A stretch of 64,000 nt of DNA. It comes from Arenicola marina. Lineage: Eukaryota; Annelida; Polychaeta; Arenicolidae. Below are positions 15,401-50,860 of this stretch, one piece after another; within the stretch, counting starts at the first letter, position 1; each line of letters starts with the position of its first letter. Below the pieces are notes generated by a model. That model did no database searches. It was given only the letters and a program-made list of their open reading frames with translations, and had not been told where the DNA came from. A program made the position numbers and the translations under genes. Location: NCBI GenBank assembly GCA_964019135.1, contig OZ025253.1:37622548-37686547 (forward strand), written 5' to 3'.

Positions 15401-18400
15401 TTGGCCCCATGAAAAAAATCCCTTCGTGTGACTACATGCCATGACGTCCAGGGAGTGACGTATCAACGTGACGTCATTAGAACTTCATGCACGCACATAC
15501 GGTGTCTAGTACTTAGCTTACAAGGCAAGCGCCGCGCAAATGTCAATATCAATTGAGTCATCAAGATTTAGGCGTTGAAGCGAGACCATTTTAAGTACGT
15601 GAGAGTCGTTCGCGACGCATGCTTGGAGGGTTAAACCACTAAGCGCAGCGCACGGACGGCAGCCATGAATAAATTGGGGGCCCCTCCCCCTATCACGTAC
15701 TTACGGCGTGGTGTATACAGTGCATTGGGGGCACCCGTTTTTAGCGGGTCAAATACTTACGCGATGATGTTCATACTGGGAATATATGAGCCAAATATAT
15801 TCGTTGTGTTGGATCAGCTCTCAAAAACTCTCAAAAGGGAATCAGGCGTGGTAGCTATCTAGCATAGAGCTCGGGCAACTCCCAGTCGCTTCGCTGTACA
15901 TGCACTAACCGTAGGGCTATACAGTTCTGTTGACCGGAATTCTAGAATAAAATACATGCCACACACAAAGCGTAACCACTTTAATGAACATGTCATTAGC
16001 CGAAATATTCAATACTTATTCTCGCAAATTGCAAAAGCGTCCACGTTGTTTCTATTGTGGTTGCATTTTATTTGATGATCTAACAGACGCTGTAAGGGGA
16101 GCGCTGGCGCTGTTGATAAGGCACAGGCTTAGCTGCAGGCGAACAGGTCACGGGTTCACGCCCTGGCTCCTGCATGTTTCAAGTTTTATCCAACCACATT
16201 TCACTGTCCTGAGAGGTTTATTGGTCCAATTTAGTCTTTATGTACACAAATGAGGCATGCACACGAATCTTTTTTTTTTTTAGATCAGACGGCATGTGAA
16301 AATTTGCAAATATTATATGTTTTATGAAGGTGAAAAATTGCCTGTATTATCAGCTTAAAGTGGACTGTGAAGTCTTCCCTGGGTTATGTCATGACCCTGT
16401 TATCCGTACCAGAATTTCAGCATACACGGAACCCGTAGAGCTTAAGGCTAACTGCTCCTCGGACCATCACGCTTGTGGCTGATGGCGCAATTTGTAGTTA
16501 TCTTCTATGTTTATTATTAATTTATTAACTTTTCAGGCGGCGCCCCGCCCCCCGGCTATGCTCAACCGGGGCAGCCTGGCTACGGGCAGCCTGGCTACGG
16601 GCAGCCCCCGCCGGGACAACCCCCCCAGCCAGGGTACGGGCAGCCCGCCCAGCCTGGCTTCTACGGACAACCTCCACAGCAAGGTAGGCTGCTGTCTTTA
16701 TCAATGCCTAGTGTTTGTACCCTGTTATATCAACTTTTCCTGATTCAAAATTTCACCCTTTCACCGTGATCGAAGATGGGTCTTCGTATTTCCATTTCAC
16801 ACCCTTCTACCGCTGCATGTTCCGTCCCTGACGCTAAGATAATGTCCAAGATGTATTTTTATACACTGGAGAACTTTAATGGCTGAACACTTTCTGATGG
16901 TGAGAAAAGTTTATGGATAACGATGGAACCCTTCGTATTGTTTCAATGAGTCACCCTGCTCGATGGCAGAATTTCAGAAAAGAATTGAAAAAAAGGTGAA
17001 TTTAATTCCATCGCTTTTCGGATCTAAATTATATTACAGTCGAAATCCGCTTTCGGACGCCCTTGCTACCAAGACCCTTTTTATACTCATGCCTTGTCAT
17101 GCGCTTCACCCACCTATCCTGTTCTTCACCCACCTCTCGTCTCTCTCCGTTACCATGGCTAATGGAGGACAATATGGCGCCCAGCCGGGGTATGGCCAAC
17201 CTCCAGCCTATTACCAGTCGACAGGTAACTCATCACGTGACCCGATCCGATAAGCTTGCTTGGATGGTGCATGTTATTGTTGCTTAAAGCGCCTAACTGA
17301 AGTCCGCCTCGGCCAATAGTTTCATGTTACTATCACAGGGAGAAAAACTGTAAACAGTTACGTGACTGTAAAGGTTTCGTGGTGAGTGCGGCGAGGCGTG
17401 GAGCCGGCTTGGCAGCGGTGTTGAACACGTATGTTGGGTGAACGGGACACGAAGGTAACGCGTCTATGCGCGTCTGGCTCCGCTTGACCGGCACCCGCCA
17501 TATAAACCCCTGGGCTGGTGGCTTGAGACACAATCGACAGAGGAACGCAGCTTGCGGACTGACCCACGCCACACCCCGGGCTGCTGCCAAGCCGGCTCCA
17601 CGCCTCGCCGCACTCACCACGAAACCTTTACAGTCACGTAACTGTTTACAGTTTTTTCTCCCTGTGATATTACCGTTATCCGGCTCACTTTTTGTTGGTA
17701 TTGTAGAATTCTCTTTAACATGACAGCGGGACACGTAACTGACGGCTCTTAACCTATAGGGGTGTCGGGGCAGTAGGCAATAATACACGCCATACAGCTT
17801 GATTAACATGTCTTAATACTACTCTTAACAAGCCGTCATCTTGGACATGATGCTAAGCCAAGTAGAAGACAACGTCAAACAGTGGAATGTTTTTTTGGTT
17901 ACGAAATCAAAAGTACTTATTCAGCATTAGTTGCATGATTTTTTTTGTCAGAACGGCGTTATATAGTTATTCAACCGTGCAACAATAACCTAGGCCCCTC
18001 ACCTCATCCCTGGTTTACCTTGTATTGGATTTCTGCATGCGTGAATGAACGTTTGTGCAATGTATTTCTTCTTTATGTAGCAAGGAAATAATTTTATATG
18101 CCCCCCCCCCTCTGTATCCCCAGTATTGGATTGTGTCCACCAGCCATATACTTACCGGTCAACTAGTGCATAGACTCGGTCACCACCGCTAGGACATCTT
18201 ATTGTGACAGTTTGGTAGCATATTAAATGTGGGTCTGTTACCTGTCCTCCGCATGCAATGTTACAATGTTGTGTAAATTGTGCCATATTTTCTCTTTAAA
18301 CACAGTTTATTAAAAATAATAATAAACAATGATACAAAACTCCATGATTCAAACATCGATAATTTTTTAACCCCTTTTTGACATAATTTTTTCCTTCACC

Positions 18401-24400: not shown

Positions 24401-25295
24401 TCGGTCGAGTATGATATCATGCATGCGTCTAGAACGTGCTTTGGTCTCTTATTGCACTACATTGTGGCTTTCTCGGCCTCGTATCACAGGCGTCCCTATG
24501 CAGCCTATGGCGGGTCAACCTATGGCCGGGCAGCCTATGGCCGGACAGCCTGTGGCGGGGCAGCCTATGGCGGGTCAACCGGGACAGATCCAGTGGATGC
24601 AGCGGCCCGAGGTGCCCGGATGTCCGCCTGGCCTGGAATACCTGACCCAGATTGACCAGATCCTTGTACACCAACAAGTGGAGCTGTTCGAAGGTGAGTG
24701 GGATTAACGTGAAAACAAGGTGGGAATCAAGTCTCAAGCTTAAAGTTACTTGTCGAGCTCTTTATTAAAGAGGTCAAAATAAAAGCAATAATCGCTCCTT
24801 AAATCAGCCAAAATTTCTTTTGTCTATATTTCCCGCATGCCACACTGCCAAATAGTCTCTTTGCCTTGCCCGTGATATCATTTAACCACAGGTTTTCAAT
24901 TTAGTGGTAAACGTCATCAGTTTTGGCGTTTCGCGATGCTCTGTTATAAGTAGCGAGTTCCGCGGTGTCCCGGGAAGGTCACGTTTGCATATCACATCGA
25001 TGTTTATCAGGTTTCTGAACTGATAGAATGAAACAATCGAGTTTTCTGCAAATTGTGATACATATGTCGCCTGGACTTGGCGGGAAAAGCTCGACAATCA
25101 GCCTTAAATGTGTAAATGAAGTCTGTATTCGGTTACTGTGGTGGGGATGATGTCATTTGGTGCTTACACTTTCATTTGAAGCGCGGAATGACCGAGTTCC
25201 CGTATGATGGATTTTGTTTATCACTTAGTTGTGTTATTAGGATGATGATGGTGATTATGATAATGATTATTATTTTTTTTTATTTATTTTTTTTA

Positions 25296-25327
<32 letters not shown>

Positions 25328-28300
25328 GTATTAGTATTCGGGGACCTCCCTGATATAGTGATTAGCGCACAAGGCCGCAGGTGACTAGGTCCTTGGGTTG
25401 GAATCTGGACCTCTGGGCATCTAAAGTGAGGCTTGTTTCATCCATTCATCGTTCCCGGAAGGTTCCTTTGGTTTCCTTCTAACCAGTCCATTGATTCATT
25501 CTCGCGTACGTCACGTATATTTCTAAGTATCTATTTATGTGTGTTCTACCTGTAGCGTTTACCAACTGGGAGACGCAGAACAGATACCAGATCAAGAATT
25601 CCTTGGGTCAGCAAATCTTCTTTGCCCATGAAGGTAGGTGGTCGGACATATCTCCACGTTCATAGCTTATTAATATCAATCAAATTCAACTGTCATAAAA
25701 TGATCTTAGAAAATCTCAAAAAGATAACAAAATGAGAGCCGAACTGATGCTGAACACACACATACTGAAGCAAATTCTAGTAATAAATGGTAAAGACAAA
25801 CAGATAACTTCTGCTTACCTCTGCTTGGCTCTACTCTTCTACTAGTGACATTTACTTGTCATGTGGGATAAGTACTTTCAATGTTTACTTGTTGCATCTC
25901 ATATTTTCTTGTCCTCCCAAATGTACTTTTAATTGCCACTTGTCCCACCTGATATTTACTTGCCCCCCCTCCCTCCCATAAAAAGACACTCTTACTACTT
26001 TTCAGGAACGTTTTCCTGCTCCGTTCATTGTAATCGGATTTAACTAACCGATATCGACCGCGGAACAGTTAATATATTTAATTATAATCCACCACAGGTT
26101 CCTTTAATGCGTCATTTGATGCATGTTTCCACATGGGAAACATCCACACTCCCTCTATGATGCAGATATTGATATCATATAATAACATGGGCTTGTGCAT
26201 GGTTTGAATAAGACTTGACCTTGACCTTGCAGAATCGGACACGTGCCACCGACAGTGCTGCGGCCCGCAGCGGGGTTTCACAATGCACATCACGGACAAT
26301 CTGAACCAGGTGAGTTTCCGGGCACGCGTGACTGTCGAAGTAAAACTGTGAACTGTTGCAAAGTTTCTCGTTTCTCGTTCGTTGCCTGCGTGCCAAGCTA
26401 AGTTGAAAGCCTGCGTGCCACGTATCTCAAAGATATCAGGTTGGTTTTGATGACATTTATTAAAGATGCGATACAAATTGTCCAGTAAATGCAAAATTGT
26501 AACATTATGCTGTGCTAAGATAAAATTCCCGTCAAGGATGTGATTACCATGGCAGGTGTAAGAACTGTAATAGCCATCTCCCTTTCCAATGACGGATTAA
26601 ACACGAAATGACAACAATCAACACCGGCCTCTTTTCTTGTCACATCAAAATCGTTTTCCCGCTCCTCTGCACATGCGCAATATCGCGTCCCGTGATTTAG
26701 TTTACATTCAATCGATTGGTGGCGCCATTTACTACGTCATAGCGTTAACATTCAATACATTACAAATAAGGATATGTTCAATCATGCCATGACAACCTGT
26801 ACACGATATTAAGCAGATGCATCATATGATGCGTTACTATGGTAACGTGTATACTATGGTCTTTGAGTGGTGATACACATTAAAATACCGTGACAGTCTG
26901 AGTGCCACACAAACGGATACATGTCCACCAGTGTTAGGTGCCTTACTTTGATTTGATTTGATTTGGTTTCAACGGCACTTTCAGCATGTAAGGCGCCATA
27001 TCGTGCCACACTGGTTAAGTTCAATCGAAATAAATCAAAAGAGTCGGTATTAAAACCCTGAAAGTATCAATAAATGTGAGCTTGTAGATAAAACTGTGCA
27101 GTTGTCTAGGTTTGTGCGAATAAAGATCCCAGGTCTCTCTTCGCAAAGAGTACGCTACTGGATACGTGGCTCCTTTCTACCTTGACCCTTCCCAACAGTT
27201 CATTTCATTTCCTTGGCCTTAGTCAGCCCCCATGTGCAGCAAAAGCGTCCTAAAACACCAGTTCATTTCATTTCCTTGGCCTAAGTCAGCCCCCATGTGC
27301 GGCAAAAGCGTCCTAAAACACCAGTTCATTTCATTTCCTTGGCCTAAGTCAGCCCCCATGTGCACCAAAAGCGACTTAAAACATTAATTAATTTCCGTTC
27401 CTGGGCCTAGTTCAGGCCTCGTGTGCCCTAAAGCGGCCTCAACTTTGCCAATTGCAATTCGTTTGATGACATTGCAGGAGGTGATGCGCATTGAGCGGCA
27501 GTTCAAGTGCTGCGCCGGGTGGAACTGCTGCGCGGGGTCCGACTGCTGCGCAATGGAGGTGGAGGTCCAGGCCCCCGTGGGCCAGACCGTCGGCTGGGTC
27601 AAGCAGAGGTGAGTAAAGCCCGGGGGCCCCGTCCCTGTGTCTTGGGGTGGGGGGGGGGGGGGGGGAGGGGTCTAAATACATAAGCCAACTTGATATATTT
27701 GGCAAATATTTCAGTGAAATATTTTGCAAATTTGGCGTCGTCGGCATTTCCTTGTTTTGCTTCCCAAATATTATAAGATTCTTCTTCGTGCCTTCGCCTG
27801 CTACTTCTTGGCTTGAACGTCGGGAAGTTCACTCACCCATGAATACGGCTCGCTCACCATACGACAGAAAGATGTCAACCTCAAGTCTCGCGCGCCAGTC
27901 AATAGGTCCTGGGTTCGAATCCTGGCCTGGGCATGTAATCTGGGGCACGTTTCATCCATTCACATCATCATCATTCTTCCTACATCGTCCCGATAGGTTC
28001 CTTGACCCTGTTTAGCCCTCGTGTGCAATAAAGAGCGGCCTCAAATATTCATAAGACAAACATTCATTGTAGTTGGGAAGCAAGCAAGGTTATCATTACG
28101 CCCGCCGCCCATGGTCGGTATATACCACTTTCACCTTACATCTTGCGGAGTGCGACCGGTTAGCGCTAAACCTGTCTGCAATTCATGCCCCACACTGTCT
28201 ATATCTCCGCTGTAGGGTATCAGAATGGGGCGCGCTTTCGGGTCGAACTGTGTATTTGTTTCTACTTGAAATGTTTTTCCGGGTGGTTTGTTTCCTAGGT

Positions 28301-31300
28301 GTACCTTATGACACATGATGAGCTCTATCGTTTACTTTACATTAACTTAGCGTCGCCCAGACGAGTGCAACCCATCGCTATCTCAGTAGCCTCATAAGGC
28401 CTTATGCTAGGGTGTCTACAATCTTCACGTAGGCTACGCGTTTACTTGAACCGGCGATCTACAAAGCGACTACTAAAGCTGAGAGGTAGCTTACTCCGAT
28501 CGCAGATAGCCGGTGGCGGGTTCGAACCCCGCATTTCTCTGAAGGTGTTTCATCCTTTTATCTTGCTTTCCCACGAGGGCTCCTTGGCCCGATGTTGCCA
28601 TTGTGTGTAGCCTAGACACAAAATAGGGATTTTGAACCAATGGGTCATAACATTGAAACCTGGCCGCCCGATGGCTCAGTGGGTTACAGCGCTGGCATTC
28701 AGCGCTCTCTAACCGCTGGCATTCAGCGCTCTCTAACCGCTGGTATTCAGCGCTCTAGCTACCCCGCCATGGCTGTTAGGTCGCAACCAATAGTAGGGGT
28801 TACCCCCGGGGACATGGCTCCGCTCTTCCCTTCCTTCTTCCATTAACGCGATATGACCAGAATTGGGTAAAGCGTCCTGAATATACAACGAACCATGACA
28901 TTGAAAGTGTTACGGGTTAGCGGCCGATTGACAGCGCTGTAGTTTTAAAGACTGCTAGGAAGGGGTGGATATAATAGCTTTGAATAATAACACCTCCAGT
29001 ATATGTCCGCCGATCTATTTATAGATATAAACTGTCTGGCTCTCATATACTCGATCCCGAATCTCTCTAACAGTGTCTATGGCTGTGTCTGTATCCAGGG
29101 CGAGCTGTCTGGCCCCCAAGTACTCGATCCCGAATCCCTCTAACAGTGTCTATGGCTGTGTCTGTATCCAGAGCGAGCTGTCTGGCCCCCAAGTACTCGA
29201 TCCCGAATCTCTCTAACAGTGTCTATGGCTGTGTCTGTATCCAGGGCGAGCTGTCTGGCCCCCAAGTACTCGATCCCGAATCTCTCTAACAGTGTCTATG
29301 GCTGTGTCTGTATCCAGGGCGAGCTGTCTGGCCCCCAAGTACTCGATCCCGAATCTCTCTAACAGTGTATGGCTGTGTCTGTATCCAGGGCGAGCTGTCT
29401 GGCCCTCAAGTACTCGATCCCGAATCTCTCTAACAGTGTCTATGGCTGTGTCTGTATCCAGGGCGAGCTGTCTGGCCCCCAAGTACTCGATCCCGAATCT
29501 CTCTAACAGTGTCTATGGCTGTGTCTGTATCCAGGGCGAGCTGTCTGGCCCCCAAGTACTCGATCCCGAATCTCTCTAACAGTGTCTATGGCTGTGTCTG
29601 TATCCAGGGCGAGCAGTCTGGCCCCCAAGTACTCGATCCCGAATCTCTCTAACAGTGTCTATGGCTGTGTCTGTATCCAGGGCGAGCTGTCTGGCCCCCA
29701 AGTACTCGATCCCGAATCTCTCTAACAGTGTCTATGGCTGTGTCTGTATCCAGGGCGAGCTGTCTGGCCCCCAAGTACTCGATCCCGAATCTCTCTAACA
29801 GTGTCTATGGCTGTGTCTGTATCCAGGGCGAGCTGTCTGGCCCCCAAGTACTCGATCCCGAATCTCTCTAACAGTGTCTATGGCTGTGTCTGTATCCAGG
29901 GCGAGCTGTCTGGCCCCCAAGTACTCGATCCCGAATCTCTCTAACAGTGTCTATGGCTGTGTCTGTATCCAGGGCGAGCTGTCTGGCCCCCAAGTACTCG
30001 ATCCCGAATCTCTCTAACAGTGTCTATGGCTGTGTCTGTATCCAGGGCGAGCTGTCTGGCCCCCAAGTACTCGATCCCGAATCTCTCTAACAGTGTATAT
30101 GGCTGTGTCTGTATCCAGGGCGAGCTGTCTGGCCCCCAAGTACTCGATCCCGAATCTCTCTAACAGTGTCTATGGCTGTGTCTGTATCCAGGGCGAGCTG
30201 TCTGGCCCCCAAGTACTCGATCCCGAATCTCTCTAACAGTGTCTATGGCTGTGTCTGTATCCAGGGCGAGCTGTCTGGCCCCCAAGTACTCGATCCCGAA
30301 TCTCTCTAACAGTGTCTATGGCTGTGTCTGTATCCAGGGCGAGCTGTCTGGCCCCCAAGTACTCGATCCCGAATCTCTCTAACAGTGTCTATGGCTGTGT
30401 CTGTATCCAGGGCGAGCTGTCTGGCCCCCAAGTACTCGATCCCGAATCTCTCTAACAGTGTCTATGGCTGTGTCTGTATCCAGGGCGAGCTGTCTGGCCC
30501 CCCAAGTACTCGATCCCGAATCTCTCTAACAGTGTCTATGGCTGTGTCTGTATGCAGGGCGAGCTGTCTGGCCCCCAAGTACTCGATCCCGAATCTCTCT
30601 AACAGTGTCTATGGCTGTGTCTGTATCCAGGGCGAGCTGTCTGGCCCCCAAGTACTCGATCCCGAATCTCTCTAACAGTGTCTATGGCTGTGTCTGTATC
30701 CAGGGCGAGCTGTCTGGCCCCCAAGTACTCGATCCCGAATCTCTCTAACAGTGTCTATGGCTGTGTCTGTATCCAGGGCGAGCTGTCTGGCCCCCAAGTA
30801 CTCGATCCCGAATCTCTCTAACAGTGTCTATGGCTGTGTCTGTATCCAGGGCGAGCTGTCTGGCCCCCAAGTACTCGATCCCGAATCTCTCTAACAGTGT
30901 CTATGGCTGTGTCTGTATCCAGGGCGAGCTGTCTGGCCCCCAAGTACTCGATCCCGAATCTCTCTAACAGTGTCTATGGCTGTGTCTGTATCCAGGGCGA
31001 GCTGTCTGGCCCCCAAGTACTCGATCCCGAATCTCTCTAACAGTGTCTATGGCTGTGTCTGTATCCAGGGCGAGCTGTCTGGCTCCCAAGTACTCGATCC
31101 CGAATCTCTCTAACAGTGTCTATGGCTGTGTCTGTATCCAGGGCGAGCTGTCTGGCCCCCAAGTACTCGATCCCGAATCTCTCTAACAGTGTCTATGGCT
31201 GTGTCTGTATCCAGGGCGAGCTGTCTGGCTCCCAAGTACTCGATCCCGAATCTCTCTAACAGTGTCTATGGCTGTGTCTGTATCCAGGGCGAGCTGTTTG

Positions 31301-32408
31301 GCCCCCAAGTACTCGATCCCGAATCTCTCTAACAGTGTCTATGGCTGTGTCTGTATCCAGGGCGAGCTGTCTGGCCCCCAAGTACTCGATCCCGAATCTC
31401 TCTAACAGTGTCTATGGCTGTGTCTGTATCCAGGGCGAGCTGTCTGGCCCCCAAGTACTCGATCCCGAATCTCTCTAACAGTGTCTATGGCTGTGTCTGT
31501 ATCCAGGGCGAGCTGTCTGGCCCCCAAGTACTCGATCCCGAATCTCTCTAACAGTGTCTATGGCTGTGTCTGTATCCAGGGCGAGCTGTCTGGCCCCCAA
31601 GTACTCGATCCCGAATCTCTCTAACAGTGTCTATGGCTGTGTCTGTATCCAGGGCGAGCTGTCTGGCCCCCAAGTACTCGATCCCGAATCCCTCTAACAG
31701 TGTCTATGGCTGTGTCTGTATCCAGGGCGAGCTGTCTGGCCCCCAAGTACTCGATCCCGAATCTCTCTAACAGTGTCTATGGCTGTGTCTGTATCCAGGG
31801 CGAGCTGTCTGGCCCCCAAGTACTCGATCCCGAATCTCTCTAACAGTGTCTATGGCTGTGTCTGTATCCAGGGCGAGCTGTCTGGCTCCCAAGTACTCGA
31901 TCCTGGACGCCCAGCAGCAGGAGGTGCTCCAGGTTGAGGGTCCGGTGTGTATCTGCCAGGGACCATGCTGCACCAACGATCAGGAATTCAAGGTAGGACA
32001 ATAAAGTCCATATTCATATATATATATATATGTATATGTTTAATATATGTATTTATATGGTATTTTGTAAATTATTGTGGTTACATTGATCCCTGCATTG
32101 TGTAACTAATTCCATCGTCCATGTTAAAGCCTACGACATGGATTACTGTAGTAAATGGTTAGCGTGAGTAATACGTGAGCAATGCTGGGGCAAGGGTTTG
32201 CCCTATCATGAAAAAACGACGTATATGACCCTCCGGCATATTCGTCTGTCTCACCCGTGGTACTGGAGCGCATATCAATAGGTCACGGGTTCGAATCCCG
32301 GGTAGGGCGCCTAATCTTGGGTTTGTTTCTTCCATTCATACTTGATCGTCCCGGGAGGTGCGTTTTTAGTGATTTTTTTGTTTAGCCCTTGTGTGCTCAA
32401 AAGCGGCT

Positions 32409-32445
<37 letters not shown>

Positions 32446-35400
32446 CATCATTTATTTCGACCAGGAAAGCAACAACAATGCAATACAGCATACAGCAAAA
32501 ACGAACAAAATATAATCCCTGGCCGAGGAGACCACCATTATGACAGTCGCTGGCATGGTGGCCACCTCAAAAGAAAAAAAAAAGACCAAAGAAAAAAAAA
32601 ACCAAAGGAAAAAAAAAAGCGGAGAAAAATACTTTAAAGGACAAATTGGGTAAGCAATTATCGATAGACACCATTAGAATACAATGATATAAATGACATA
32701 TGATATAAAAATAATAATTTGGGGGATTAGATAAAACGCAATATCTCTATAATTCTTTTTGGCAGACATAACAATTAACTTTCAAACAGTCAACACAGTA
32801 TCGTTCATTCACCTATGTGCTCCGTCCCTGGACAAAAGGTCGCATAACGGAGGGAGTCACATTATCGAGGGCTTGTATCAAACATAACGGAGGGTCACAT
32901 TATCGAGGGCTTGTATCAAACATAACGGAGGGTCACATTATCGAGGGCTTGTATCAAACATAACGGAGGGTCACATTATGGAGGGCTTGTATCAAACGTA
33001 ACGGAGGGTCACATTATCGAGGGCTTGTATCAAACATAACGGAGGGTCACATTATGGAGGGCTTGTATCAAACATAACGGAGGGTCACATTATCGAGGGC
33101 TTGTATCAAACATAACGGAGGGTCACATTATCGAGGGCTTGTATCAAACATAACGGAGGGTCACAATATGGAGGGCTTGTATCAAACATAACGGAGGGTC
33201 ACATTATCGAGGGCTTGTATCAAACATAACGGAGGGTCACATTATCGAGGGCTTGTATCAAACCTTGTATTATTAATGCAGATATCTTTGGCATTTGGGT
33301 CTTTCAGATGTAATGATGATCGCGCAACGTTTTTATAATTAATTTTTGCCTTTTCAATCTCCGCCGTTATATTTGGGTTTCGTTAAGTTACGGTGTACGA
33401 TAATATATCATCCAAGTCCAAAACACGATAATTGTAATTTGGTTGGGAATTACAACTTCGAAATGAACTCATTTGTTTGTCAAGTCGGTTTTTATTGTTA
33501 GGAAGTTGAATAGTATAATCACTGACTTTTTCTTCTGGAAATGTCTGGTTTCGTGTTTCACATCGGCATTTTTTGTTTAATCATCATTTATTTCTAAAGT
33601 CTGAGTTGAGTTAAATATGAAGCGACGGGGACCGACGAGAAACTTCGTTAAGTATGAAGCGACGGGGACCGACGAGACTTGTGTACTTCTCTGCAGCTCT
33701 GACTGCTCAGAAGTGGATGCCTTTCTCCCTTTTTTTTCCACTTTCGTGGTATTGTTTGAGAAGGAGATGTAGTTTTTAGCGCCTTGTTTCTCCTTCTTAC
33801 GGGCGAGACACGGGGCGCGACCGCACTGCCACCTGTCGGCTAAATCAACAGGAAACAGACGGCCGCCTTATCACCATGGCAACCACCGTGTATTCCATTT
33901 AAGCAAAATCGCCTTCAGTTCTAGTTCTAGCGGGTGACCTGAGCGAGTCGGGGCTTGGCTGGGCTGGGAAGGCCCCCCGGCTTGCCGCGCGGGAAAAGCG
34001 CGGGAAATGAAAGCGGTGCGGACGCCGCATGACGTCTGCTCCCGAACAGCGCGCGTCCCCACTGTCCGTCTGTCTGTCAGTCTGTCGGGGGGCCCGTGTA
34101 GCCTCCAGTTTCCTATTCCGCTGGTGGCGACGCGGGCAGCTGACTTGTATTTCCTTTGACCAAACGTTATGTATCCATCAACTTACAGGGGTATTTTTCT
34201 GATTAATGTCAAAACGTGTGGGAGGGTTTTCCATCCTTCCTTAATGTGCTTTCGGTATCAAGACACTTATCTTCATTATTCCAGGGAGCGTTTTCTAATA
34301 ATAATAATGAGTTTATTATCATGAAAATGTATATTACGTTATATCAATTTTATTTGACAAGTAATCGCGACAAGAGCCTAAGCCAAAGGGTTATTCTTTC
34401 GATTCAGAAATGGTGTGGTGATCTGCCAAGAATGTAATAATAAATGCAATAATGTAAGCAGACAAACAAGGAATCCCCAAAAGAACAGATGACATATGAC
34501 AACATATAATATGAATTATAACATATATTATCAACTATATTGTTAGCCACAATAATTAGCCCTATAGCTATATATAGTTATATCCAAAGACAATTTGTGT
34601 TATTTATATCTTTTTGGTGGTATTTTAATTAAACTTACACTCCGAGGTGATCGTTTCAACGGGTGCACCAAAATAAACTGTTCTACTTGAGTGTCTAAAT
34701 GGGTGTCGGTGGGACCTGTGAACAACATGTGCACACGTTTATGACGTTTCACCGCAGCCACAAGCTTCGACTCTTGTGGAGGGAAAATTCGAGCATTTGG
34801 ATAGTTTGGGCCAATGGCAGATGTCAGATCCGGAATACCACCGCCAGAAGCGCGTTGCAAGCTATGACGAAAAGCAAGTTTTTCTGTGTGCATAACTTGC
34901 GCTATCTTTACGAATGCAGCGCCCGGTGATTGACAGCTTATGACGCTAATTCCTAGTTCTTCTCCCCACCGCCAGGTGTTCTCCGCGGACATGGCTCATG
35001 ACGTTGGCAAGATCAGCAAGCAATGGAGCGGCTTCGTCAAGGAATACTTCACCAAAGCCGACAACTTCGGCGTGTCCTGTGAGTGCCGCGTATTTAAGCT
35101 ACTTAATATGTAACAACAGGTAAACATTGGACGGGCGGTGCCGCACTTAATATGGAACAACAGGTAAACATTGGACGGGCGGGGCCGCACTTAATATGTA
35201 ACAACAGGTAAACATTGGCGGGCAGGGCCGCACTTAATATGTAACCACAGGTAAACATTGGACGGGCGGGGCCGCACTTAATATGTAACCACAGGTAAAC
35301 ATTGGACAGGCGGGGCCGCACTTAATATGTAACAACAGGTAAACATTGGACGGGCAGGGCCGCACTTAATATGTAACCACAGGTAAACATTGGACGGGCG

Positions 35401-38400
35401 GGGCCGCACTTAATATGTAACCACAGGTAGACATTGGACGGGCGGGGCCGCACTTAATATGTAACCACAGGTAAACATTGGACCGGCGGGGCCGCACTTA
35501 ATATGTAACAACAGGTAAACATTGGACGGGCGGGGCCGCACTTACTATGTAACAACAGGTAAACATTGGACCGGCGGGGCCGCACTTAATATGTCACCAC
35601 AGGTAAACATTGGACGGGCGGGGCCGCACTTACTATGTAACAACAGGTAAACATTGGACCGGCGGGGCCGCACTTAATATGTAACAACAGGTAAACATTG
35701 GACGGGCGGGGCCGCACTTACTATGTAACAACAGGTAAACATTGGACCGGCGGGGCCGCACTTAATATGTAACAACAGGTAAACATTGGACGGGCGGGGC
35801 CGCACTTACTATGTAACAACAGGTAAACATTGGACCGGCGGGGCCGCACTTAATATGTAACAACAGGTAAACATTGGACGGGCGGGGCCGCACTTAATAT
35901 GTAACAACAGGTAAACATTGGACGGGCGGGGCCGCACTTAATATGTAACAACAGGTAAACATTGGACGGGCGGGGCCGCACTTAATATGTAACAACAGGT
36001 AAACATTGGACGCGCGGGGCCGCACTTAATATGTAACAACAGGTAAACATTGGACGGGCGGGGCCGCACTTAATATGTAACAACAGGTAAACATTGGACG
36101 GGCGGGGCCGCACTTAATATGTAACAACAGGTAAACATTGGACCGGCGGGGCCGCACTTAATATGTAACCACAGGTAAACATTGGACGGGCGGGGCGGCA
36201 CTTAATATGTAACAACAGGTAAACATTGGACGCGCGGGGCCGCACTTAATATGTAACAACAGGTGAACATTGGACGCGCGGGGCCGCACTTAATATGTAA
36301 CAACAGGTAAACATTGGACGGGCGGGGCCGCACTTAATATGTAACAACAGGTAAACATTGGACGGGCGGGGCCGCACTTAATATGTAACAACAGGTAAAC
36401 ATTGGACGGGCGGGGCCGCACTTAATATGTAACAACAGGTAAACATTGGACGGGCGGGGCCGCACTTAATATGTAACAACAGATAAACATTGGACGCGCG
36501 GGGCCGCACTTAATATGTAACAACAGGTAAACATTGGACGGGCGGGGCCGCACTTAATATGTAACAACAGGTAAACATTGGACGGGCGGGGCCGCACTTA
36601 ATATGTAACAACAGGTAAACATTGGACGCGCGGGGCCGCACTTAATATGTAACAACAGGTAAACATTGGACGGGCGGGGCCGCACTTAATATGTAACCAC
36701 AGGTAAACATTGGACGGGCGGGGCCGCACTTAATATGTAACCAGAGGTAAACATTGGACGGGCGGGGCCGCACTTAATATGTAACCACAGGTAAACATTG
36801 GACGGGCGGGGCCGCACTTAATATGTAACCAGAGGTAAACATTGGACCGGCGGGGCCGCACTTAATATGTAACCACAGGTAAACATTGGACCGGCGGGGC
36901 CGCACTTAATATGTAACAACAGGTAAACATTGGACGGGCGGGGCCGCACTTAATATGTAACCACAGGTAAACATTGGACGGGCGGGGCCGCACTTAATAT
37001 GTAACCAGAGGTAAACATTGGACGGGCGGGGCCGCACTTAATATGTAACAACAGGTGAACATTGGACGGGCGGGGCCGCACTTAATATGTAACAACAGGT
37101 GAACATTGGACCGGCGGGGCCGCACTTTATATGTAACAACAGGTAAACATTGGACGCGCGGGGCCGCACTTAATATGTAACAACAGGTAAACATTGGACG
37201 GGCGGGGCCGCACTTAATATGTAACCACAGGTAAACATTGGACGGGCGGGGCCGCACTTAATATGTAACCAGAGGTAAACATTGGACGGGCGGGGCCGCA
37301 CTTAATATGTAACAACAGGTGAACATTGGACGGGCGGGGCCGCACTTAATATGTAACAACAGGTAAACATTGGACGGGCGGGGCCGCACTTAATATGTAA
37401 CAACAGGTAAACATTGGACGGGCGGGGCCGCACTTAATATGTAACCACAGGTAAACATTGGACGGGCGGGGCCGCACTTAATATGTAACAACAGGTAAAC
37501 ATTGGACGGGCGGGGCCGCACTTAATATGTAACAACAGGTGAACATTGGACGGGCGGGGCCGCACTTAATATGTAACAACAGGTAAACATTGGACGGGCG
37601 GGGCCGCACTTAATATGTAACAAAAGGTGAACATTGGACGCGCGGGGCCGCACTTAATATGTAACAACAGGTAAACATTGGACGCGCGGGGCCGCACTTA
37701 ATATGTAACAACAGGTAAACATTGGACGGGCGGGGCCGCACTTAATATGTAACAACAGGTAAACATTGGACGGGCGGGGCCGCACTTAATATGTAACAAC
37801 AGGTAAACATTGGACGGGCGGGGCCGCACTTAATATGTAACAACAGGTAAACATTGGACGGGCGGGGCCGCACTTAATATGTAACCACAGGTAAACATTG
37901 GACGGGCGGGGCCGCACTTAATATGTAACAACAGGTAAACATTGGACGGGCGGGGCCGCACTTAATATGTAACAACAGGTGAACATTGGACGGGCGGGGC
38001 CGCACTTAATATGTAACAACAGGTAAACATTGGACGGGCGGGGCCGCACTTAATATGTAACAACAGGTGAACATTGGACGCGCGGGGCCGCACTTAATAT
38101 GTAACAACAGGTGAACATTGGACGCGCGGGGCCGCACTTAATATGTAACAACAGGTAAACATTGGACGGGCGGGGCCGCACTTAATATGTAACAACAGGT
38201 AAACATTGGACGGGCGGGGCCGCACTTAATATGTAACAACAGGTAAACATTGGACGGGCGGGGCCGCACTTAATATGTAACAACAGGTAAACATTGGACG
38301 GGCGGGGCCGCACTTAATATGTAACAACAGGTAAACATTGGACGGGCGGGGCCGCACTTAATATGTAACAACAGGTAAACATTGGACGCGCGGGGCCGCA

Positions 38401-50400: not shown

Positions 50401-50509
50401 TTATCAATACAAATATTTTGGCAGCTTGATAAGCTCGTTTGTTTCTCATTTGTTACAGGATTTCCAGTTCTTCGAGAACCAGAACAGGAATAATAATAAT
50501 CATTACTAA
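9378..50509 (+). CDS. PLSCR: Phospholipid scramblase gene (whole locus, multi-exon)
   Basis: Coding exons are 9378-9432, 16537-16683, 24490-24693, 25556-25633, 26233-26309, 27478-27608, 31872-31992, 34976-35078, 40673-40731, then 42116-42169 or 50459-50509; 17155-17224 is an alternative first exon. All junctions are GT-AG and phases fit, giving 342, 341 or about 298 residues, close to vertebrate PLSCR1 (about 318). Seen in order (342-residue form): a Gly/Pro/Gln/Tyr-rich N-terminus with PPxY, the family block [19 protein letters not shown], a cysteine cluster at 198-211 (palmitoylation site in the family), GKISKQW, the Ca2+-loop region ADNFGVSFPMD, and a single C-terminal hydrophobic segment about 312-330. 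The family comprises membrane-anchored proteins linked to Ca2+-dependent phospholipid movement between bilayer leaflets; some also act in the nucleus. Position 1 of the Ca2+ loop is Lys rather than Asp. A 5' untranslated exon upstream of 9360 is likely but was not identified. Confidence 0.93.
9460..10860. repeat. 25-bp minisatellite, 56 copies
   Basis: The unit contains cacttgacaggttaacaa. From the first tgacaggtta (9461) to the last (10836) is 1375 bases, exactly 55 units, so copies differ by substitutions only. The atataacact variant recurs at 9651, 9826, 10276, 10551 and 10776, all multiples of 25 apart, which shows higher-order block duplication. It lies in PLSCR intron 1, 28 bases after the donor. 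Confidence 0.97.
10861..12958. other. Intron 1, no gene seen
   Basis: Contains an (AT)n run near 10986-11004 and T/A runs near 11280-11310. No exon recognised. Confidence 0.5.
12959..13005. repeat. (TCTG)n(TG)n microsatellite
   Basis: A tctg run grading into a tg run. Confidence 0.95.
13206..13346. repeat. Dispersed repeat, copy 1
   Basis: A G tract followed by caaggggtatttccgttcct and, later, gaccgtcgtgatcaa. The same order occurs at 61321-61447. Possibly a degraded transposon family; no ends recognised. Confidence 0.7.
13690..13893 (+). mobile_element. SINE family A, degenerate copy
   Basis: Shows gtgggtcgatccccgccagt (B-box region), aggataaagatcccatg and cgacatgacttattg in family order, but diverged. 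Confidence 0.55.
13910..14210 (+). mobile_element. SINE family A, full copy
   Basis: Starts ggggccgccccgatagatca and contains aggataaaggtcacatgtcc and ttgacgcgatatgaccagaa. An extra segment (about 14085-14135, gccgcagcccgcgcgggcat) is not present in the other copies. Confidence 0.85.
14721..14974. mobile_element. Element with 20-bp perfect inverted repeat
   Basis: tcaatagaccgatccaggct at 14721-14740 is the exact reverse complement of 14955-14974. Likely a small non-autonomous DNA transposon; target duplication not resolved. Confidence 0.5.
14975..15290. mobile_element. Palindromic element split by a SINE
   Basis: gctcgtaagttcgaa...aaaatatttcgcccc on the left and gggcgaaatatttggcccc...ttcgaacttacggg on the right are inverted copies. 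The SINE at 15034-15221 sits between them. Confidence 0.7.
15034..15221 (+). mobile_element. tRNA-derived SINE, family B, full copy
   Basis: Begins with a tRNA-like head (cctccctggtgtagtggtta, B box ggttcgaatcc) and then a body with ctaatctggggcatgtttca and gaggttccttggccc. It is flanked by the 11-base duplication CCATGCTAATG (15023-15033, 15222-15232). It resembles Glu/Asp-type tRNA, but its stem ends do not pair well, so it is not a functional tRNA gene. Confidence 0.9.
16094..16260 (+). mobile_element. SINE family B, diverged copy
   Basis: B box region cacgggttcacgccctgg, then catgtttcaagttttatcca and gagaggtttattggtccaat in family order. The rest of 15291-16536 shows nothing else. Confidence 0.65.
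16537..16683 (+). CDS. PLSCR: PLSCR proline-rich exon 2
   Basis: This is a phase 1-1 exon between tttcag and gtaggc. It encodes a Gly-Tyr-Gly-Gln-Pro repeat region (residues 19-67), including a PPGY motif at 23-26. PPxY motifs bind WW domains such as those of Nedd4-type ligases, and comparable proline-rich N-termini are typical of PLSCR1 orthologues. Because the exon is symmetrical it can be skipped without changing frame. Confidence 0.85.
17155..17224 (+). CDS. PLSCR: PLSCR alternative first coding exon
   Basis: The ATG sits in a strong start context (taccATGgc). The exon encodes [20 protein letters not shown] followed by Gln-Ser-Thr and one base of Gly, ending phase 1 at gtaact, so it joins the exon at 24490 in frame. 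No AG acceptor lies just upstream; the nearest (ending 17039) would give the wrong frame from exon 2, so I read this as an alternative start rather than an internal exon. It has its own PPAY motif. A weak TTTATA lies at 17079-17084. The resulting protein would be about 298 residues. Confidence 0.7.
17331..17669. mobile_element. 339-bp transposon with about 86-bp terminal inverted repeats
   Basis: tatcacagggagaaaaactg through gccggcttggcagc (17331-17416) is repeated inverted at 17583-17669 with a 2-base length difference. Ends are flanked by TA, as for TA-targeting elements. Apparent open frames on both strands (17333-17809) come from this symmetry. It lies 110 bases after the alternative first PLSCR exon. 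Confidence 0.88.
17670..18605. other. Intron, no gene seen
   Basis: AT-rich with a C tract near 18450-18470. Confidence 0.5.
18606..19173 (-). mobile_element. SINE family A interrupted by a transposon
   Basis: The 3' part (18606-18775: ttctggtcgcatcgcgtcaa, tttatcccgcgaccacaca) and the head (19100-19173: ccacgtgccattaggctctc, gagctatcgaggcccc) are separated by the element at 18815-19071 and short extra flanks. Confidence 0.8.
18815..19071. mobile_element. Inverted-repeat transposon inside a SINE
   Basis: Ends caggggcggatctagg and cctagatccgcccctg are perfect inverted repeats. The interior has three copies of a g-tract/ttgctctctgaaaaacttgcga block. TATAT occurs on both flanks, so a short target duplication is possible. 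Confidence 0.85.
19560..19845 (+). mobile_element. SINE-like fragment
   Basis: Contains cgtggttcgaaccccca (B-box-like) and cattgtcgcgatatgacccg, which resembles the family A 3' end. Boundaries uncertain. Confidence 0.4.
20185..20935. repeat. (CCA/CAT)-rich microsatellite, about 750 bp
   Basis: Almost only A, C and T in trinucleotide order (caccatcaccaccaccacta), with 42-base sub-blocks. It generates spurious Thr-, His-, Pro- and Val-rich open frames on both strands. Confidence 0.97.
21341..21826. mobile_element. Degenerate foldback (long inverted repeat)
   Basis: Left arm landmarks agcctcaccagctc, ggtggtgctcatg, cttatgcattttg and cgctcgaca return in inverse order on the right as tgtcgagcg, caaaatgcataag, catgagcaccacc and gagctggtgaggct. 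Probably an old DNA transposon. Confidence 0.7.
21827..23400. other. Intron, no gene seen
   Basis: Unique-looking sequence with a short (TA) run near 22360 and a C tract near 22625. Confidence 0.5.
23405..23600. repeat. 70-bp tandem duplication plus a decayed copy
   Basis: cgccgttgcgttgcgtgatg begins at 23408 and 23478, with identical units ending ccatagaac. A third start at 23548 diverges after a few bases. Confidence 0.92.
23825..24050. repeat. 32-bp tandem array, 7 copies
   Basis: ttgtgtactacgtcatc starts at 23838, 23870, 23902, 23934, 23966, 23998 and 24030, exactly 32 bases apart. Confidence 0.95.
24490..24693 (+). CDS. PLSCR: PLSCR exon with PMAGQ repeats and scramblase signature
   Basis: A phase 1-1 exon of 204 bases. 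The first half encodes five near-perfect PMAGQ pentapeptides, a coding minisatellite of 15-base units. The second half encodes [19 protein letters not shown] and then [16 protein letters not shown], which aligns without gaps to the start of the conserved scramblase domain in human PLSCR1 ([19 protein letters not shown]). The donor is gtgagt. Confidence 0.95.
24755..25096. mobile_element. TIR transposon (TCGAGCTCTTT family), copy 1
   Basis: Ends tgtcgagctcttta and cgggaaaagctcgaca. The interior (tttcttttgtctatat, aacgtcatcagttt, gatgtttatcaggtttctga, gaatgaaacaatcgagtttt) matches 59199-59592 in the same order. Non-coding. Confidence 0.88.
25297..25328. repeat. (TTA)n microsatellite
   Basis: About ten ATT/TTA units within a T-rich stretch. 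Confidence 0.95.
25341..25505 (+). mobile_element. SINE family B copy
   Basis: Head acctccctgatatagtgatt, then gcgcacaaggccgcaggtga, body gaggcttgtttcatccattc and ggaaggttcctttgg, ending 50 bases before a PLSCR exon. Confidence 0.75.
25556..25633 (+). CDS. PLSCR: PLSCR core-domain exon ([15 protein letters not shown])
   Basis: A phase 1-1 exon between ctgtag and gtaggt. It encodes [20 protein letters not shown] and then IFFAHE, matching the human block LTGFETNNKYEIKNSFGQRV. It forms part of the scramblase beta-barrel-like domain. A SINE (25341-25505) lies just upstream in the intron. Confidence 0.95.
26233..26309 (+). CDS. PLSCR: PLSCR core-domain exon ([15 protein letters not shown])
   Basis: Starts phase 1 and ends phase 0 at gtgagt. 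It encodes [20 protein letters not shown] followed by DNLNQ, matching human [20 protein letters not shown]. The paired cysteines before Gly-Pro are conserved in the family. Confidence 0.95.
26310..27100. other. Intron, no gene seen
   Basis: A short (TTTGA)n stretch lies near 26950. Otherwise unique. Confidence 0.5.
27105..27195 (+). mobile_element. SINE family A 3' fragment
   Basis: gaataaagatcccaggtctc and ttcgcaaagagtacgctact in family order; the head is missing. Confidence 0.6.
27196..27440 (+). repeat. 63-bp tandem repeat made of SINE B tails
   Basis: cagttcatttcatttccttg starts at 27196, 27259 and 27322, with a fourth diverged copy. Each unit is the SINE B 3' end (ttccttggcctaagtcagcc...gcgtcctaaaacacc). 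It ends 37 bases before a PLSCR exon. Confidence 0.88.
27478..27608 (+). CDS. PLSCR: PLSCR cysteine-cluster exon
   Basis: Starts phase 0 after attgcag and ends phase 2 at gtgagt. It encodes [20 protein letters not shown], then [20 protein letters not shown] and VKQ. The three Cys-Cys pairs (residues 198-211) sit where PLSCR1 has its multiply palmitoylated CCCPCC motif, which decides plasma-membrane versus nuclear location. Here the pairs are spread out by AGWN and AGSD. The next stretch matches human EIQAPPGVPIGYV. Confidence 0.95.
27885..28045 (+). mobile_element. SINE family B, head-truncated copy
   Basis: ggtcctgggttcgaatcctg, then taatctggggcacgtttcat and gataggttccttgaccc. Confidence 0.75.
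28460..28625 (+). mobile_element. SINE family B-like copy
   Basis: ggtggcgggttcgaaccccg followed by aaggtgtttcatccttttat and agggctccttggcccgat. The tRNA-like head differs, so it may be a subfamily. Confidence 0.6.
28662..28892 (+). mobile_element. SINE family A with internal triplication
   Basis: Head ggccgcccgatggctcagtg, then a 24-base segment (ctggcattcagcgctctcta...) three times in tandem before the B-box region. The body (ttacccccggggacatggct, cgatatgaccagaattgggt) is typical. Confidence 0.85.
29033..31903. repeat. 73-bp minisatellite spanning a PLSCR intron-exon junction
   Basis: Each unit holds, in order, the exon start ggcgagctgtctggccccca, then agtactcgatcccgaatctc, a branch-point-like tctctaac, and gtctgtatccag. 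Acceptors run from 29098 to 31871: 2773 bases = 38 units with one 2-base deletion (near 29370) and one 1-base insertion (near 30500). That gives 39 acceptors, plus a partial copy at the 5' end. The last copy runs into the real exon, which shares the unit's first 32 bases. Confidence 0.98.
31872..31992 (+). CDS. PLSCR: PLSCR exon that ends the 73-bp satellite
   Basis: The acceptor is tgtatccag at 31871. The exon completes Arg231 and encodes [20 protein letters not shown], then [20 protein letters not shown], ending phase 0 at gtagga. It matches human HPCLPKFTIQNEKREDVLKI and SGPCVVCSCC. The first 32 bases (31872-31903) are also part of the 73-bp repeat unit, so the exon's 5' end and its acceptor are the last of about 39 copies. 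Only this copy continues into the rest of the domain. Confidence 0.95.
32004..32250. other. Intron, no gene seen
   Basis: Includes (TA)n at about 32017-32030. No exon. Confidence 0.5.
32250..32416 (+). mobile_element. SINE family B copy
   Basis: aataggtcacgggttcgaat, then cctaatcttgggtttgtttc, tcgtcccgggaggtgcg and tgtgctcaaaagcggcttaa. Followed by (GA)n. Confidence 0.75.
32415..32443. repeat. (GA)n microsatellite
   Basis: About 14 GA units at a SINE tail. A-rich DNA follows at 32565-32635. Confidence 0.95.
32841..33264. repeat. 38-bp tandem array, 11 copies
   Basis: cataacggagggtcacatta starts every 38 bases; the first copy has a small insertion. A tcgagg/tggagg alternation marks variant units. 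Confidence 0.95.
33265..34975. other. Intron, no gene seen
   Basis: Holds a 37-base duplication (33610-33680, tatgaagcgacggggaccga). The GC-rich stretch 33780-34130 looks CpG-rich but shows no exon. Confidence 0.45.
34976..35078 (+). CDS. PLSCR: PLSCR exon with GKISKQW and Ca2+-loop start
   Basis: Starts phase 0 after gccag and ends phase 1 at gtgagt. It encodes [20 protein letters not shown], then [21 protein letters not shown] corresponds to the PLSCR1 GKISKHW segment that serves as a non-classical nuclear localisation signal in that protein. The Ca2+-binding loop starts here, but its first ligand position is Lys298 (Asp in human PLSCR1). The 44-bp satellite starts within about 10 bases of the donor. 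Confidence 0.95.
35087..40293. repeat. 44-bp minisatellite, about 118 copies (5.2 kb)
   Basis: The unit holds ggccgcacttaatatgtaac, aacaggtaaacattgg and acgggcgg. From 35183 to 40286 is 5103 bases = 116 units less one base, so register is kept. Variants affect few positions (gacgggcgg, gaccggcgg, gacgcgcgg; aacaac or aaccac). The first partial copy starts within 10 bases of the PLSCR donor at 35079. Confidence 0.98.
40294..40672. other. Intron, no gene seen
   Basis: Unique sequence leading to the PLSCR exon at 40673. Confidence 0.5.
40673..40731 (+). CDS. PLSCR: PLSCR transmembrane-segment exon
   Basis: Starts phase 1 after cccgcag and ends phase 0 at gtaagt. It completes Phe306 and encodes [19 protein letters not shown], matching human PLDLDVKMKAVMIGACFLI almost residue for residue. 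It supplies the end of the Ca2+ loop (Asp309) and the C-terminal membrane helix. The preceding intron holds the 5.2-kb 44-bp array. Confidence 0.96.
41015..41267. promoter_or_regulatory. Cluster of three perfect CRE octamers
   Basis: TGACGTCA occurs at 41015, 41245 and 41260, with a related TGACGTAA near 41190, all in the intron between 40731 and 42116. The octamer is the full-length CREB/ATF site. Regulatory use is inferred only from clustering. Confidence 0.35.
41375..41413. other. Perfect 15-bp hairpin
   Basis: gtgtctcagcgtgcg and cgcacgctgagacac around a 9-base loop. Could form a stem in RNA or be a transposon relic. Confidence 0.6.
42116..42169 (+). CDS. PLSCR: PLSCR terminal exon, version 1
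   Basis: Phase 0 after ttgcag. Encodes [17 protein letters not shown] and TGA. DFMFFE is identical to human PLSCR1 after the membrane helix. No AATAAA was seen within about 400 bases downstream. The homologous exon at 50459 ends in a similar Asn-rich His-Tyr tail, so these behave as alternative last exons. Confidence 0.93.
   Translation, partial: DFMFFEQKQDDKNNRHY
42621..43208. repeat. 28-bp minisatellite, 21 copies, with CCAAT boxes
   Basis: gactcctggacgcttaacca starts at 42621 and last at 43181, exactly 20 units apart. Each unit carries AACCAATCAG, a strong NF-Y/CCAAT-box match (one unit has CCAACCAG). It lies between the two PLSCR terminal exons. Confidence 0.97.
43209..43690. other. No gene seen
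   Basis: Contains a C/T-rich tract (43525-43580, ctcccctcccc). The open frame at 43255-43644 has no recognisable domain or splice support. Confidence 0.45.
43700..47385. repeat. 35-bp minisatellite, about 105 copies, with 1248-bp higher-order repeat
   Basis: The unit holds cataagcttgtgatatccac and ttgaagtagacagag; some units lack two bases (cagcat for cagagcat). Long blocks recur at an offset of exactly 1248 bases: frames ending at 44247/45495, 44426/45674 and 44689/45937 (- strand) are near-identical. Each common unit has a HindIII site (aagctt). Open frames up to 640 codons on the - strand are artefacts. Confidence 0.97.
47485..47665. repeat. Degenerate 25-30-bp tandem repeat
   Basis: aacaggtcagagatatcaa-like units repeat about seven times with many changes. 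Confidence 0.75.
47955..48432. repeat. 30-bp tandem array, about 15 copies
   Basis: attgagacagagcgtttaga followed by aatcagcgac repeats; units vary (gttcag, gaggcag, gacagacaaagctatcagc). Confidence 0.92.
48648..48712. repeat. 17-bp tandem repeat
   Basis: gttagggaggtggtcgg about four times. The rest of 48433-49215 shows nothing recognisable. Confidence 0.85.
49220..49650. repeat. 18-bp GC-rich array, about 24 copies
   Basis: ccatcccgccccgggggg repeats with small changes. Because 18 is divisible by 3, several frames on both strands are open and give hexapeptide repeats; I do not regard them as genes. The ccccgggg core is self-complementary. Confidence 0.96.
49655..49857 (+). mobile_element. 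SINE family A-like diverged copy
   Basis: tgcgtggttcaaatcccacc, ccaagataaagctcagaggt, ttcgcaaagagtacggcggt and attatcgcgacatgacctat in family order. Confidence 0.65.
49858..50458. other. Intron before the second terminal exon, nothing else seen
   Basis: AT-rich DNA ending in a pyrimidine-rich acceptor (tttctcatttgttacag). Confidence 0.5.
50459..50509 (+). CDS. PLSCR: PLSCR terminal exon, version 2 (duplicated)
   Basis: Phase 0 after tgttacag. Encodes [16 protein letters not shown] and TAA. It is clearly related to the exon at 42116 (shared DF-FFE start and HY end) and is preceded by a good pyrimidine tract, so it can replace that exon in frame. An ATTAAA at 51184-51189 followed by a GT-rich stretch is a possible poly(A) signal. 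It could instead be the last exon of a partial tandem gene copy, but no other duplicated scramblase exons lie between the two. Confidence 0.85.
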   Translation, partial: DFQFFENQNRNNNNHY

Positions 50510-50529: not shown

Positions 50530-50860
50530 GACCGCTGGCAGTCCTTGACCTTTGGCAGTCCTTGACCTCTGGCAGTCCTTGACCTGTGGCAGTTCTTGAC
50601 CTCTGGCAGTCCTTGACCTCTGGCAGTCCTGGCCCTCTGGCAATCCTTGACCTCTGGCAATCCTTGACCTCTGGCAGTCCTTGATCGCTGGATGTCCCTG
50701 ATCGCTGGATGTCCTTGATTGCTGGCTGTCATTGATCTCTGGCTATCCTTGGCCGGTGACTACCGGAGACCTTTGGCTGTCAGTGACCCCTGGCTGTCCT
50801 TGGCATATGGATGTCCTGGACCTCAAGCTGTCCTTGACCTCTGGTTGGCCTTGGCCCCTC
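50530..50860. repeat. 17-bp tandem array in the probable PLSCR 3' UTR
   Basis: gtccttgacctctggca repeats at 17-base spacing (50541, 50558, 50575 ...) and grades into variants (gatcgctggatgtccct). It starts about 20 bases after the stop of the second terminal exon. Confidence 0.9.

Follow-up and report, generated by a model that had tools for sequence, protein, structure and literature searches.

It has long been asked how the spliceosome chooses a single acceptor when several have the same sequence. The question is raised here by a scramblase gene, PLSCR, in which a single intron holds 39 nearly identical 3' splice sites within the stretch of DNA that we analysed (64,000 nt, called the window below). 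Which of these sites can serve the gene, by what means would it be picked out, and what kind of sequence is the array that carries them?

A minisatellite across an intron-exon junction of PLSCR

Nine plus-strand exons, when joined, gave an uninterrupted frame of 298 codons, and the spliced protein matched the Pfam Scramblase domain (PF03803) with an E-value of 4e-83 over residues 65-288. The identity of the exon that terminates the array, which the first-pass annotation had taken for a PLSCR exon, is borne out by this match and by the open nine-exon model. The gene is also matched by a database protein, P0001 (one protein cluster with 1 member sequence and 2 contigs, the longest of 1193 bp), which covers part of exon 2, exons 3 to 8 and the distal one of two possible last exons. 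The features of the gene and of its array are the following.

17155..17224, plus strand: putative PLSCR exon 1, with an in-frame ATG and a Pro/Gly-rich start, donor CAG/gtaact, phase 1 into exon 2; outside P0001
24490..24693, plus strand: PLSCR exon 2, containing a 15-bp coding repeat in frame (TRF 24500-24580); gene model, the later part being the P0001 match
25556..25633, plus strand: PLSCR exon 3; gene model and P0001
26233..26309, plus strand: PLSCR exon 4; gene model and P0001
27478..27608, plus strand: PLSCR exon 5, donor GAG/gtgagt, the partner of acceptor 31872; gene model, donor score and P0001
27609..31871, plus strand: intron 5, 4263 nt long, the array taking up 2840 nt; TRF and gene model
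29032..31903, plus strand: mirage minisatellite with a 73-bp unit and 39 acceptor copies, across the intron 5/exon 6 junction; TRF and unit alignment
29032..29057, plus strand: left edge of the array, a diverged partial 26-bp copy of the exon part, with 3 differences from the real exon and 4 from the consensus
31872..31992, plus strand: PLSCR exon 6, authentic acceptor 31872, its first 32 bases being the exon part of the unit; gene model, splicing test and P0001
34976..35078, plus strand: PLSCR exon 7, donor CCT/gtgagt; gene model, donor score and P0001
40673..40731, plus strand: PLSCR exon 8; gene model and P0001
42116..42169, plus strand: candidate PLSCR last exon, version A; reading frame and homology
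50459..50509, plus strand: PLSCR last exon, version B, which fits P0001; P0001 match

P0001 fits the last exon at 50459-50509, and with the one at 42116-42169 there is a mismatch at the protein end. The coding repeat of exon 2 (24500-24580) is of the AGQPM type; P0001 differs there by one residue, M for V, which is possibly an allele. Upstream of the ATG exon we noticed a possible cassette exon of 147 nt (16537-16683), flanked by AG and GT and containing Pro/Gly-rich repeats.

The 39-copy array at the junction is confirmed as real and lies far beyond chance. TRF placed it at 29032-31903, with a period of 73 bp, 39.4 copies and 98% matches. A 25-base probe of the acceptor core, with up to 4 substitutions permitted, found 39 cores from 29099 to 31872, every match having at most 1 substitution; the spacing between neighbours is 73 bp in 36 of 38 intervals, and 71 and 74 bp in the remaining two. 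Each unit joins 41 nt from the end of intron 5 to 32 nt from the start of exon 6, and it thus runs across an intron-exon boundary, as the unit of a mirage does. Twenty-eight of the 39 units are letter-identical to the consensus, and the other 11 carry one to three changes. In the consensus unit, the A of a CTAAC branch-like site sits 28 nt 5' of the acceptor G, and the sole further AG is found 3 nt 3' of that A. The final unit of the array falls on the authentic intron 5/exon 6 junction, where the repeat stops 32 bases into the exon (31872-31903). This agrees with the first-pass description of a 73-bp junction array in 39 copies, each with a CTAAC branch-point-like site, an acceptor and the first 32 bases of the exon; the branch-point-like site and acceptor were verified in the consensus unit, and the start moved by one base, from 29033 to 29032.

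Only the last acceptor yields the full protein

When exon 5 was spliced in silico to each of the 39 acceptors, the full protein was obtained from 31872 only. With all 38 upstream acceptors the frame closed early, 217 nt or more ahead of the last exon junction (with the last exon at 42116), so the mRNAs joined at these sites are expected to be decayed. The stop was reached at residue 225 in 34 cases, at 201 in one, at 232 in one (the acceptor copy directly before the last) and at 273 and 274 in the other two. Given the open 298-codon frame, exon 6 must start at 31872. The earlier claim that the splicing machinery must use the last acceptor stands in a narrower form, for the complete protein, which 1 of the 39 acceptors provides. 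Use of upstream acceptors at a low level would be invisible to short-read assembly and hidden by decay.

With the last exon taken at 50459, P0001 and the spliced gene agree in 257 of 258 residues, and P0001 passes from exon 5 to exon 6 exactly where the model joins them. From contig size we infer that its source contigs are RNA-derived: a length of at most 1193 bp does not fit genomic DNA in which introns of 4263 and 5594 bp occur, and P0001 is therefore taken as transcript-derived. The array is compatible with normal splicing, in that P0001, which is one protein cluster, spans the junction as spliced; this passage across exons 5 and 6 is the best evidence for use of the last acceptor. The exon start at 31872, on which the first-pass annotation had staked its reading, is upheld at the protein level by P0001 and the open frame.

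We also looked for the products of missplicing. A protein search with the peptide that the array would encode (one reading of the array, against proteins of 0.55-1.75 times 201 residues) returned P0001 itself as the only candidate, with an E-value of 1.6, and none carrying the peptide. Four array-specific words were contained in 0 of the 144 proteins examined.

How the last acceptor would be picked out

The 39 copies have nearly the same local sequence and differ mainly in position, so the choice among them must rest on distance or on exon context. Scored with a simple, crude donor matrix of textbook frequencies, not derived from this species, the best of 273 GTs in the array reached 2.85 bits, and the gene model's own eight in-frame donors 6.8-12.3 bits, a range that leaves out a ninth donor near 16684, scored one base out of register. 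Measured to the donor at 31992, the exon is 121 nt long from 31872, and 194 nt, 267 nt and so on from the preceding acceptors. Exon definition would favour the last acceptor because, of all 39, only 31872 gives an exon as short as 121 nt up to the donor at 31992, and the units are without a good donor. The spliceosome would then prefer this site for its short exon and for the only good donor nearby, and mRNAs joined at upstream acceptors would be lost to nonsense-mediated decay. We infer that exon definition and decay together would spare the last-site mRNA only. First-come co-transcriptional splicing, on the other hand, would predict use of the first acceptor, at 29099, counter to the proposed preference for the last. 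Recursive splicing at the array was rejected, since a search of the 73-bp array for ratchet sites of the AG/GT kind found 0 CAGGT.

Kinship with lancelet mirages and other systems

The first-pass annotation had named a precedent in amphioxus Adh, which proved real and extends to further genes: mirages are reported, in the parts of PMC3087553 and PMC3902484 that describe them, from lancelet (Branchiostoma) Adh3, the globins BflGb6 and BflGb9, TnC and PGBD5. According to the same passages, BflGb6 haplotypes have 6 and 3 units and PGBD5 has 2-7 in two assemblies. The Adh3 mirage is reported to be unstable in length, even somatically; the PLSCR array is represented here by one haplotype. All mirages in the portions of these two papers that we draw upon have cephalochordate hosts.

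Like the lancelet mirages, as far as these accounts go, the PLSCR repeat lies across the border between an intron and an exon, its copies bear splice signals and a normal mRNA is made. Unlike them, it lies in a PLSCR gene and presents 39 acceptors against 2-7 units, a range that comprises the BflGb6 and PGBD5 counts only. Human segmentally duplicated genes also have internal tandem repeats at exon-intron borders that are able to alter splicing, as outlined in PMC2812944; these repeats differ from paralog to paralog and may give rise to novel introns, whereas in PLSCR neither the predicted border nor the predicted protein is altered. The tandem duplication of proto-splice sites, discussed as a form of intron gain in a section of PMC3087553, likewise copies a splice signal, but in the present case there is no new intron, and the array lies inside an existing one and has no good donor. 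A literature search whose coverage excluded most subscription papers found neither a PLSCR mirage nor a bryozoan mirage among the titles and opening lines of abstracts that were listed. The PLSCR array is a mirage minisatellite in a gene for which no such report was found, with more copies than the comparable counted cases.

Proposed origin and homogenisation of the array

Six of 12 aligned scramblases (those of the window, P0001 and four others) share the word SCLAPKY, which is encoded by the exonic bases of the unit, so it is the exon that gave rise to the array. Position 57 of the unit is T in units 28, 30 and 39, the last of which is the real exon, as well as in the partial copy at the left edge, and C elsewhere; this partial copy and the copy in the exon both deviate from the array consensus, both with T57. 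This distribution suggests that T57 is ancestral and that the interior of the array has been homogenised. Array edges also escape homogenisation in the lancelet globin mirage BflGb6 (PMC3087553), and the PLSCR array resembles that mirage, as sketched there, in having a near-identical interior and deviating edges.

We propose that a 73-bp segment, made up of 41 nt of intron 5 with the branch-like site and acceptor and of 32 nt of exon 6, would have been duplicated in tandem, and that the array would then have grown and been homogenised to 39 near-identical copies, presumably by unequal exchange or slippage. Our preferred reading, to which we assign a probability of roughly 85%, is that the array is a mirage minisatellite produced by tandem duplication and homogenisation, that it is a tolerated, near-neutral by-product and not a device, and that the last acceptor is used through exon definition and decay.

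A repeat-rich setting

Tandem repeats make up 31% of the window, in 38 arrays after hand-merging of TRF rows, and within the gene span 17155-42169 those of 200 bp or longer account for 39% of the sequence. When the array mask was rotated, 6.2 of 16 splice junctions were expected to fall inside arrays, and 1 of 16 was observed; 4.6% of the rotations, which are not independent of each other, gave at most one. Contact between an array and a junction is thus less surprising in itself than it looks, and arrays contain, if anything, fewer junctions than expected. With minisatellites as dense as these, mirages may be expected wherever the density is similar, and most of them are presumably removed by selection. 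A self-comparison in which 11 exons, each extended by 60-bp flanks, served as queries and up to 60 matches per query were kept found copies of a splice junction for exon 6 only. The matches of exon 2 were to the repeat inside that exon, and those of exon 5, exon 7 and last exon B were confined to the flanks.

Alternative readings

The array might instead be a regulator, a valve of unproductive splicing in which the share of transcripts destroyed scales with copy number, so that array length sets PLSCR output. Real competition between the acceptors is plausible because their sequences are nearly identical, and a premature stop follows from all 38 that lie upstream. We nevertheless judge such a valve quite improbable. 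The misspliced peptide was found in no protein, though decay would mask it, and lancelet mirages are reported not to disturb splicing in the relevant parts of PMC3087553 and PMC3902484. The presence of junction copies at exon 6 only, among the 11 flanked exons, and the abundance of junction-free arrays give no sign of a designed layout. A wider proposal, also unlikely in our view, is that the 39-fold acceptor array works both as a natural assay of competition and as a length-dependent brake, PLSCR transcripts being always partly lost to upstream acceptors and decay, so that output follows array length, and that junction minisatellites recur in minisatellite-rich animal genomes well beyond lancelets.

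A reading of the array as an incipient gain of an intron or exon, with an internal copy becoming an exon or the exon border shifting, would accord with a model proposed for lancelet mirages in the pertinent section of PMC3087553 and with human paralogs, in which introns form from exon-border repeats according to the account in PMC2812944. No copy is exon-ready now, however, since the units have no good donor (none of the 273 GTs exceeds 2.85 bits), the unit length, 73, is not divisible by three and a stop is met from each of the 38 upstream acceptors; we consider this reading very improbable. We also give very little credence to the copy number being an assembly artefact, by expansion of a few copies or stacking of alleles. 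Units that are 98% identical would suit such an error, and a lancelet globin mirage was apparently mis-assembled in a genome draft, as mentioned in PMC3087553, but several units have private differences, the 71- and 74-bp versions occur at scattered positions and the same window holds further long arrays.

Relationships of the scramblase and range of mirages

In a careful tree of 31 rows, built from the window protein and 30 chosen proteins, the window PLSCR groups with that of the bryozoan Watersipora (bootstrap 99, SH-aLRT 95). A quick tree of 82 rows likewise placed it with Watersipora (SH-aLRT 95). No lancelet was named in the best 120 of 1416 matches to the window protein, many rows being nameless, nor in the best 120 of 773 matches to a hemichordate query (7989 best candidates scored; again many nameless). 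The grouping with Watersipora in two trees and the lack of a named lancelet among the matches listed speak against a lancelet, and the host is probably not one, though the nameless rows could include a lancelet. On these grounds, which come from one protein family, the mirage phenomenon probably extends beyond lancelets; if the host is bryozoan-like, the mirage is not a lancelet peculiarity.

Other sequences in the window

Pfam scanning of 10 further reading frames for other genes gave four weak matches, all under the curated cut-offs. No match to Rfam at gathering scores was found in the window, nor any sequence relative in the PDB at E 0.001, and none of the viral contigs scanned contained 23 bases of the 73-bp unit. 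An open frame at 50719-51066, protein-like to the eye, overlaps and outruns a 17-bp array (VACVKLEEDGRAAWSGKEPLWNHLFW...); it had no Pfam match up to E 0.1.

Large arrays include a 35-bp repeat in 106 copies at 43713-47390 and a 25-bp repeat in 55 copies at 9460-10845. A 44-bp array at 35101-40293 begins 22 bp downstream of exon 7. It has 118 copies, and CAGGTAAAC is present 94 times. It contains 110 sites that score at least 6.5 as donors, and 106 of these reach the 6.79 of the real exon 7 donor. We rejected it as a meaningful second array of splice signals, since chance would already supply such a motif to about 1.7 of the 18 arrays counted. Each CAG/GTAA of the 44-bp array resembles a ratchet site, without a pyrimidine tract.
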